Origin: Erpobdella octoculata
Taxonomy: Eukaryota; Annelida; Clitellata; Hirudinida; Erpobdellidae
DNA length: 64,000 bases
NCBI GenBank assembly: GCA_963978895.1
Contig: OZ022242.1
Span: forward strand, 25,967,424-26,031,423
Direction of reading: 5' to 3'
The position numbers and the translations under genes are program-made. The notes beneath the pieces were generated by a model, which saw only the letters and a program-made list of their open reading frames with translations, was not told the DNA's origin and searched no databases. Shown here one piece after another: positions 25,595 through 27,905 of the stretch (positions within the stretch are counted from its first letter, which is position 1; every line of letters begins with the position of its first letter).

Positions 25595-27658
25595 TCAGTT
25601 AGAGTTACGCTTAACTGAAACAACACTGATCGGACATTCTTCTTCGACACAGGTGCGCGCGGTATCATCAGGACTAACAGGTTGATCCAAGTCATCAACA
25701 ACGGTCGTGAAGGAACAAGGACTTTCTGTGAGGATATTTTCTACAGTATCTTTAGATGACGGATCTTGCGTGGTATCGAAATATTGCGAAAAAGAGCATG
25801 CGTCCAAAACGTCAGGACTGTTTGTTTTATACATATCAAACTTATGATTAAGCTGAAACTCATCAGGTGAATCAGTCTCAAGAAAATTATCAAGTGATTG
25901 AACCAGATCAACAGAGTTACCGATGTCGTGGAATTCATTAACATTGGAAACATCAAGAGTCGCGTTAGAAAAGGTATCGAGAAGATGACCATTTGAAAGA
26001 TCAATAGGACCCATGCTATTTTCGTTAATCGAAGTGTCAACATTGTCAGAAGCAGTCAAAACATTGTTACTCTTTTCAAAATTCGGTCGTGAAGCAATGT
26101 CCTCAGTGAATCCAAATAATCTAAGAGTTGTAGAAAACTTTTCAAATTGTTTATTAATTGAAGGGCAGAGTTTCTGAATATAAAGCGCTTCTTTTATTTT
26201 AAGTCGAAGAGGATCGTATTCTTTAACAACAATATTCGAATTAGCAACGAGAACTTCACGTGTGAGTTTTCGATGATGTATTGTTTCAAAATGCTGTCGA
26301 ATACTGCCGGATTGCAGATGCATTGTTAACCTACGAGACAGTTTAGTTCTGGTATGACCAATATATTGTTCCACCTTACTGTGTGGCAACGGACATTTAA
26401 ATTGGTATACCAAGTTGGTTTGCTGTAGGATATCATCTTTTTTCCGGGTTCTATTGTTGGTAATTACAAGGTTAAAAAGTTTGAGGTTTTTATAGTAAAT
26501 ATATAACTTCAACACGTTATTATTAGGATGTATAACTGAAACTTCTTTACTGATAATTCTACGTAAAACAGATTCGTCCAATTTATAATCGGAATGCATC
26601 TGATTTCTATAGAACAAGGTTATTAGTTTGATGTTGTCCTCTTTTACCTTCTGTGTAGAGGATTCTTTGGTAACCATCTTAGTAACAAAACTATTGATGG
26701 CGTTGTCGACAACGGTATTAGAGAAGTTATTGTTGATAAGAACTTTTTTAATCCTTTCGACTTCGATGTTGAACTCCATCCAATTCTCAGAAAATCTGTA
26801 TGCCCGTAATAAATAACTATTGATGACACTAGCCTTGTATCTGTCGGGACACTCGCTATCACCATTTAGACAGACACCATTATTGGTTGGTTTAATGTAG
26901 ACTTTAGTTTTGAGTCCGCTCTCGGTGGAAGTAATAAGAGTATCTAAGAAATGTACTTGTTGTTTATTTTGATGATTCAAATCAACAGTAAAATGTAGAA
27001 CGGATTTTTCTTCAAAACTATCCCTCAACTTAAACAAATCAGACTCATTTTCCACAAGAAGAAAAATATCGTCGACATATCTAGCGTATAATAATGGTTT
27101 GGGATTGAAATTTAACATAACAGTTGTCTCTAAATTTCCCATATAATAATTGGCGAATGTAGGTCCGAGTGGAGACCCCATGGCGACACGCTCAAGAGAA
27201 TGAATTCTTTCTTGGGCTCGGCAACCAGTCTGTCCTTGTTTGACCAGATTGTTCAATTTTATCTCCAGGTTGCTCTCGATTCTCTTCTCGATTTCCTTGG
27301 TATTCTCTTCTACCAATTTTTCCAGGTTATTAACTCTTTTCTCCATATCTGTTAATTTAAGCTGACCTTCGAGAATTAATTCTTTTATTCCTTCCATAAC
27401 GGCTTTGGTTTCTTTTTGCGCTGCTCTGTTTTGCTCCTGTGCTGCTCTGTTTTCTTCCGTCATCTTGTTTAGAAAATTTGTTAATTCTTCATCCATATCA
27501 AATTCGATATCGTCTGCATCCAGACCTTGGCTTTCTAATGTCATTCGGAGGCGATCCACGAGCTCAGACTTTTTTCCTTTGTCATTGAGTTCTCGTTTTT
27601 TTAGTTCCCGCCTCAACTCAAACAGGGAGAGTTCTCCCAATAATTTGTGATGAACCAT
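25595..27658 (-). CDS. Chimeric ORF: LTR-retrotransposon gag start fused to PLE RT/GIY-YIG
   Basis: 687 codons without a stop. Residues ~8-42 form a SAP-like helix-extended-helix (SLFELRRELKKRELNDKGKK). About 55-145 are charged coiled coil. From ~158 the frame is PLE: 'VAMGSPLGPTFANYYM' (RT motif 4 region), 'YARYVDDIFLL' (catalytic YVDD) and 'FLDTLIT'. The GIY-YIG nuclease follows ('VYQFKCP', 'YIGHT', 'LSRRL', 'KEALYIQ..CPSIN'), then an acidic tail. RT motifs 1-3 are absent, so polymerase activity is unlikely. The SAP plus coiled-coil start, with a PBS and LTR end just upstream, indicates gag origin rather than a PLE domain. The last ~11 codons and the stop come from the hAT at 24,117-25,628. 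Domestication is possible but unproven; chance in-frame joining is the simpler view. Confidence 0.7.
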   Translation of the reverse strand: MVHHKLLGELSLFELRRELKKRELNDKGKKSELVDRLRMTLESQGLDADDIEFDMDEELTNFLNKMTEENRAAQEQNRAAQKETKAVMEGIKELILEGQLKLTDMEKRVNNLEKLVEENTKEIEKRIESNLEIKLNNLVKQGQTGCRAQERIHSLERVAMGSPLGPTFANYYMGNLETTVMLNFNPKPLLYARYVDDIFLLVENESDLFKLRDSFEEKSVLHFTVDLNHQNKQQVHFLDTLITSTESGLKTKVYIKPTNNGVCLNGDSECPDRYKASVINSYLLRAYRFSENWMEFNIEVERIKKVLINNNFSNTVVDNAINSFVTKMVTKESSTQKVKEDNIKLITLFYRNQMHSDYKLDESVLRRIISKEVSVIHPNNNVLKLYIYYKNLKLFNLVITNNRTRKKDDILQQTNLVYQFKCPLPHSKVEQYIGHTRTKLSRRLTMHLQSGSIRQHFETIHHRKLTREVLVANSNIVVKEYDPLRLKIKEALYIQKLCPSINKQFEKFSTTLRLFGFTEDIASRPNFEKSNNVLTASDNVDTSINENSMGPIDLSNGHLLDTFSNATLDVSNVNEFHDIGNSVDLVQSLDNFLETDSPDEFQLNHKFDMYKTNSPDVLDACSFSQYFDTTQDPSSKDTVENILTESPCSFTTVVDDLDQPVSPDDTARTCVEEECPISVVSVKRNSN

Positions 27659-27905
27659 TTTTATTTATCTCGCTTCTGACACCAGTTGTTGTATTATCGA
27701 TAACTATACTAAGGTTCTTTAGAAATCGTCCAAAATTTATTAGAAGAAATACACACTTAATCAAAAACTTGTGTCTTAGTAACTGTAATTAAGAATGGTT
27801 GATTGAAGTTATGTAATTGCTCAACTCTATTTATTTTTTTTATGTCTTTCTTAGTTATAAAATTTTCTGAGGTTTATCAGCCTTGATTATAAACCATAGA
27901 TATAA
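27659..27905 (-). mobile_element. Partial LTR and primer-binding site of a gag-bearing retrotransposon
   Basis: On the minus strand, sequence ending ..ACAACA is followed by two bases and TGGTGTCAGAAGCG (27,671-27,684). That is a canonical PBS form: LTR end CA, 2-nt gap, then TGG complementary to a tRNA 3' CCA end. The gag ATG follows 12 bases later. The LTR is cut at its 5' side by (TA)n, so the start and TSD are not visible. The pairing tRNA was not identified. Confidence 0.65.

Follow-up and report, generated by a model that had tools for sequence, protein, structure and literature searches.

The minus strand of the window (the whole stretch of DNA that was analysed, 64,000 nt) carries at 27658-25595 a single open reading frame (ORF) of 687 codons and 687 amino acids, just as the first-pass annotation had described it. 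That annotation had also read the frame as an in-frame fusion of gag and Penelope-like element (PLE) sequence, and this reading stands: the frame draws on two sources lying in the same sense, the switch between them falls at codon 157, and the match to a short relative of the start, the protein P0121, extends up to residue 156. Pfam reports a SAP domain at residues 14-40 (E 1.8e-5, 24.7 bits against a cut-off of 23.9). It also gives a match to the C-terminal portion of RVT_1 at residues 138-217 (E 2.7e-6), whose 27.7 bits lie below the cut-off of 29.6. With the entire ORF as query, a protein search evaluated 7994 candidates and returned 267 proteins; the relatives compared below are the 120 listed of these 267. 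The whole ORF found no match in viral contigs, and the Rfam scan returned nothing relevant. The features of the locus are collected in Table 1.

Table 1. Features of the gag-PLE locus and of its edges, in window positions.
Feature	Position	Strand	Basis
TA-repeat tract following the PLE 3' end, presumed target of the insertion	23364-23491	.	
What is left of the PLE C-terminus, with the 3' region; stops within the ORF start of a following unit (ATG at 23693)	23492-24116	-	
Hammerhead-ribozyme-like motif in the PLE terminal repeat	23652-23714	-	Pattern and fold
hAT inside the PLE, target-site duplication ATCGGACA	24117-25628	-	Dimer_Tnp_hAT match; empty site in copies 2 and 3
Coding part of the 5'-truncated PLE: RT (starting shortly before motif B, with YVDD), thumb, GIY-YIG	25629-27189	-	Alignment with relatives
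Junction codon 157, CGT (R); G in PLE relatives	27188-27190	-	Alignment with relatives
Gag-type start, residues 1-156 (SAP 14-40, coiled-coil-like)	27190-27658	-	85% identity to P0121
Candidate primer-binding site TGGTGTCAGAAGCG, 14 nt	27671-27684	-	Label from general knowledge
Candidate LTR end (possibly only R-U5), ending ..AATACAACA-AC ahead of the candidate primer-binding site	27685-27895	-	Position beside the candidate primer-binding site
TA-repeat tract 5' of the chimera; the LTR-like piece lies on one side, the cut LINE 3' UTR (28038) on the other	27896-28036	.	

The start of the frame has one close relative. Queried alone, the 155-aa ORF start retrieved a single protein from 98 candidates, P0121 (185 aa, E 3.5e-80), which is identical to the ORF at 145 of 170 positions through ORF residue 156 and has a coil repeat 14 residues longer. 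Past this point P0121 continues with HAKTPAFYGTVSWSV, where the ORF runs RVAMGSPLGP. The HAKTPAFYGTVSWSV tail is similar to a P-F-G-x-x-x-W motif that we ascribe to gags of the gypsy type. Together with the SAP domain and the PBS-like sequence, this motif makes it likely that the ORF start is the gag of an LTR retrotransposon. The kind of element behind the start is presumably an LTR retrotransposon with a SAP-containing gag. With such an element, for which P0121 is the sole relative found, the locus shares the PBS-like site, the ATG, the SAP domain and the coiled-coil-like start; unlike such an element it is cut after 156 codons, and neither pol nor a second LTR was seen in the window. Residues 1-150 matched none of 1155 candidates at E<=1e-3 in a region search among proteins of the length class of the whole ORF, and P0121 as a query found no match in viral contigs or in prokaryote genome contigs. 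A PDB search gave three matches with E values of 0.022 or worse, which were taken for SAP domains.

The sequence TGGTGTCAGAAGCG stands 12 nt ahead of the ATG and is read here, on our own assumption, as a primer-binding site (PBS) with a match to a tRNA; ARAGORN found no tRNA in the window with which it could be compared. Only the end of the possible LTR is visible at this locus. The interval 27180-27905, which covers the LTR-like piece and the gag start, has no second copy in the window by BLASTN. Simple patterns for gag, protease, zinc knuckles and [FY][LIV]DD, run over the six frames of the window, matched only two PLE sites; such patterns would miss decayed copies, and the LTR element could lie beyond the window.

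The remainder of the frame is PLE sequence, its best relatives being 54-45% identical across the PLE part, and carries the features of a PLE reverse transcriptase (RT) only from just before motif B onward. In the 43 listed relatives of at least 880 aa that contain VAMG, this motif lies at residues 313-562 with a median of 464, and roughly 460 residues at the N-terminus of a PLE are therefore missing from the ORF. Columns with the same residue in at least 95% of relatives (120 listed of 267) number 74 before the junction and 64 at or after it. The ORF keeps 59 of the latter, the five exceptions being R157 at the junction, D226, K305, S474 and one gap. The positions that fit a GIY-YIG nuclease (Y418, Y432, G434, R443, H447, E490 and N502) are all kept and are conserved with the relatives; the individual roles of these residues, Y418 to N502, are assumed by us. 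Pfam at E<=0.1 did not report GIY-YIG for the ORF, and gave it for the copy of a second PLE family (family 2) only at E 0.08, below the cut-off. Ahead of the junction the letter of the ORF agrees in only 10 of the 74 conserved columns, and the motif SLFTN[IV]P, present in 88 of the 120 listed relatives (in 73 of them ahead of VAMG), is absent from the ORF. The RT of the chimera thus cannot be complete, and the ORF falls short of a complete, self-copying RT.

The first-pass annotation had placed the junction at 27,180-27,235, a range which holds and can be narrowed to codon 157 (27190-27188). The similarity to P0121 stops exactly where the ORF turns into PLE, at residue 157 and just before RT motif B. 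G precedes VAMG in each of the 88 cases that could be read among the 120 relatives listed of 267, and the aligned column at codon 157 is G in 108 of 108 relatives of the same set. In the simplest reading of codon 157, the C of CGT would come from gag and GT from the PLE, which would put the junction at 27190/27189 and assign, as we infer, the first base of the codon to the gag-type start as well. Alignments of the whole ORF begin mostly at residues 135-160, with a few reaching further back (P0084 furthest, to residue 82), and ORF residues 1-160 alone gave no BLASTP match at E<=1 among the 120 PLE relatives listed of 267. A native SAP start in a PLE is rejected as the source of the frame: the ORF start matches no listed relative, and P0121 diverges after residue 156. 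The suggestion that a full PLE family might possess this SAP start natively finds no example among the 120 relatives listed of 267.

The downstream end of the frame lies in a hAT element. This element is bordered on both sides by an 8-bp duplication, contains a Dimer_Tnp_hAT match in Pfam, and interrupts a point across which two further copies of this PLE family in the window, copies 2 and 3, run without a break and so represent the empty site. From the last base of codon 677 onward, through 10 further codons and the stop, the frame is hAT-derived. The hAT had been said only to trim the tail of the frame; it also supplies these codons and the stop, and the account needs correcting in that the PLE resumes beyond it, at 24116. 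The later insertion of the hAT would have taken the PLE C-terminus out of frame.

The openness of the frame makes little case for function. In the 3' region the chimera differs from copy 2 at 17 of 617 sites and by 2 indels. Half of this divergence, a decay of 1.4%, leads to an expectation of 0.9 premature stops in the ORF, so that the frame would be open by chance in about 41% of cases on substitutions alone; if indels are assumed to accumulate as in the AT-rich 3' region, the chance falls to 2%. The differences from copy 3 are spread over the three codon positions as 27/219, 24/219 and 28/217, with 13 gap columns (residues ~457-677). These counts concern copy 3 alone, which is itself decayed. 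We see no sign of selection on the frame, which the comparison with copy 3 fails to show. Selection inferred from openness was rejected as a weak argument, given 0.9 expected stops and differences spread evenly over the codon, and chance may account for the open frame.

It is very improbable that the chimera is a working or mobile unit, that is, that a protein of SAP, coiled coil, thumb and GIY-YIG is expressed or that the chimera has itself transposed. The length of the open frame speaks for such a unit, as do the conserved positions kept in the PLE part and the 2% chance of an open frame, should indels have been as frequent in the coding part as in the AT-rich 3' region. Against these stand the missing RT upstream of motif B, where so few conserved columns share the letter, the even distribution of differences from copy 3, the small number of stops that neutral decay predicts, and the PLE C-terminus cut by the hAT. 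The gag part has no second copy in the window, and the junction as a query found no match in viral contigs, a collection in which this host may not be represented. A mobile or domesticated gene in which an LTR promoter drives a gag SAP and coiled-coil head on a PLE thumb and GIY-YIG, moved as a unit into a TA repeat, is likewise most doubtful; such a chimera could steer the cutting of AT-rich DNA. The working protein suggested by the first-pass annotation thus gives way, with even codon positions against copy 3 and an open frame within the reach of chance, to a chimera that is probably a dead one-off and not a working new gene.

The PLE of the chimera possesses a hammerhead-like motif and a pLTR-like terminal repeat which holds an ORF start: the core CTGAAGA...GAAAC lies at 23699-23677, and the N-terminal ORF start of the next unit at 23627-23505. 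Six matches to the core pattern lie in the window, one per PLE copy and all within the PLE terminal repeat, at 23699, 43190 and 38541 in the family of the chimera (family 1) and at 32243, 32688 and 41595 in family 2. Rfam gave no hammerhead hit for the motif, a putative ribozyme by its pattern and fold. All six PLE 3' ends, from both families, fall 182-202 nt past the ATG within the hammerhead and are followed by TA repeats. They do not amount to six independent tracts, since two of them share the TA tract 32448-32486 and in two further ones the first uninterrupted TA stretch is just 8 nt, in one case preceding AGAGATGGGAATCGAACC, the end of a TIR-like element. TA runs of at least 10 units number 14 in the window. 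None of the five other truncated PLE 5' ends (43892, 40838, 34160, 40872 and 31511) lies in a TA tract, and short TA-rich letters adjoin only 40872 and 31511; the TA rule therefore holds for the 3' ends only.

A TA tract is found at each outer edge of the chimera. As a target-site duplication these two tracts are not diagnostic, TA being of low complexity, and the tract at 27896-28036 could instead be part of the LTR or of the LINE 3' end. The neighbouring LINE 3' UTR is cut at 28038, and its copies at 13699 and 14311 extend about 200 nt more. The LINE family (13637-14512 and 28038-31230) displays differing 3' ends, with (ACAT)8 at 13900, other sequence after 14512 and the cut at 28038. A clean insertion of an LTR element into the LINE at 28038 was considered and rejected: by eye, the few bases before the first TG match neither LINE copy. 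Long TA tracts recombine and misassemble easily, and recombination between TA microsatellites, or misassembly at the tracts, might have put an LTR-gag and PLE locus beside unrelated flanks, as the tracts at both outer edges and the shortened LINE 3' UTR would suggest. We consider this unlikely, as it covers the flanks only and leaves the gag-PLE junction, 0.7 kb from the nearest TA tract, still to be made.

The reading that we tentatively put first, at rather less than even confidence, is that 156 codons of gag and a 5'-truncated PLE were joined in one step by a jump of the PLE RT at a TA repeat, the product probably being a dead one-off. The GIY-YIG nuclease would have cut the TA repeat, and synthesis would have begun about 200 nt inside the next copy of the ORF. 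Immediately ahead of motif B the enzyme would have switched from the PLE RNA to a gag mRNA, copying on into the LTR-derived leader of the latter, and the far end would then have been attached to the remaining half of the TA repeat that had been cut. Both source molecules would in that case have been transcripts. A direct, same-sense fusion of two sources whose 3' part ends at a PLE 3' end, as expected of a template-switch retrocopy, is what the locus contains, and a template jump accounts for both TA tracts, the missing remainder of gag and the common sense of the parts. That the fusion is in frame would be a one-in-three accident. The 5' ends of the five other PLE copies count against the jump, since a TA tract on the 5' side is no rule here.

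Nearly as likely as the template jump is a nested insertion with loss of flanking sequence. A truncated PLE would have entered at or next to an old LTR copy, the PLE 3' end coming to lie in a TA repeat close by, and gag up to that repeat, together with the remainder of the element, would have been deleted during or after the insertion, leaving the fusion as a juxtaposition. A simple, clean insertion of the PLE into gag was rejected, as no continuation of gag is seen at the PLE 3' end. To the left of the PLE TA tract, simple patterns found no gag motif and BLASTN no LTR copy, so that the resumption of gag demanded by a clean nested insertion is not visible. Insertion with loss agrees with the 5' truncation usual among the PLE copies of the window, with the other PLE 5' ends lying outside TA tracts, as it would expect, and with the dense nesting seen here (a hAT in a PLE, a TIR-like element between two PLEs). 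Copy 2 of the PLE (43597-43892) ends in a short inverted piece of itself, a 5' inversion at 43810-43892, and PLE insertion lacking a target-site duplication and joined by microhomology is on record (PMC3846280, in excerpt). For this course of events the remaining gag sequence must vanish along with pol and the second LTR, orientation and frame must coincide as well, and the TA tract beyond the LTR piece is left to chance, which by a rough estimate places about 0.7% of positions within 15 bp of the edge of a TA run (14 x 2 x 15 / 64000).

In its PLE part the chimera resembles canonical GIY-YIG PLEs (Penelope/Poseidon and the Anolis element PAc; PMC11167929, in excerpt) in motif B, YVDD and the GIY-YIG-type positions, and, like PAc and canonical PLEs as excerpted there, it has a hammerhead-like terminal repeat, a 3' end inside the next ORF start and an AT-rich target. 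Unlike them, it has a gag-type start for its front half and lacks the RT fingers and the motif A region. The Anolis PLE is described in the same excerpts as cutting AT-rich DNA and starting to copy inside the ORF region of its RNA (PMC11167929). The 3' ends lying 182-202 nt into the ORF at TA tracts fit this internal start of reverse transcription, the start point being about 200 nt into the ORF here against 111-118 in the Anolis PLE (PMC11167929, in excerpt). With six PLE 3' ends from two families adjoining TA repeats at a near-equal distance into the ORF, the genomic DNA agrees with the internal RT start reported from in vitro work on a PLE.

Foreign sequence in PLEs has precedents. In the excerpted account of Adineta vaga (PMC3846280), Penelope families have captured ORF segments, template jumps are proposed for chimeric PLE ORFs, and an intron-bearing host gene has moved between PLE terminal repeats (pLTRs). 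As in those elements, foreign sequence is joined here to a PLE and the chimeric ORF stays open; the inserts of A. vaga, as excerpted, are N-rich and sit in an otherwise whole ORF, whereas here what is likely the gag of an LTR element replaces the 5' half (PMC3846280). The Magnaporthe chimeras WEIRD, Mg-SINE and MGL are attributed in part of the text of PMC2104539 to LINE template switching, the tripartite one being flanked by a 14-bp direct repeat. The fusion would resemble them in that copies of different transcripts are fused directly by the reverse transcription of an element, and differ, by the same excerpts (PMC2104539), in that the enzymes there are those of LINEs while here the enzyme would be that of a PLE, with TA as the sole flanking repeat. 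With template-switch LINE chimeras and captured PLE ORF segments already known from these partial accounts (PMC2104539, PMC3846280), the gag-PLE fusion is a variant. In a literature search on gag-PLE fusion, SAP gag and PLE template jump, no title among the matches listed names a gag-PLE fusion. If the template jump is true, a Penelope RT can leave its own RNA and copy the transcript of an LTR element into the same insertion, and PLEs gain a LINE-like route to fused genes.

Two family-2 PLE copies at 31511-33504 lie tail to tail around the TA tract 32448-32486 and are 98% complementary over 597 nt; the pair could be due to self-priming on the sense template or to two insertions in one TA repeat. 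At 41601-43892 a family-2 PLE on the plus strand and a family-1 PLE on the minus strand are likewise tail to tail around TA. The segment 41792-42950 between them bears inverted AGAGATGGGAATCGAACC at both ends and resembles a TIR element inserted into the TA repeat. In the left flank of the chimera, at 22990-23180, the plus strand encodes the peptide RDIIYLDATGSIVKKRGSPFYIYELVVRNP, transposase-like by eye. The ORFs at 51632-54634 look like what we take to be a Helitron replication/helicase protein.
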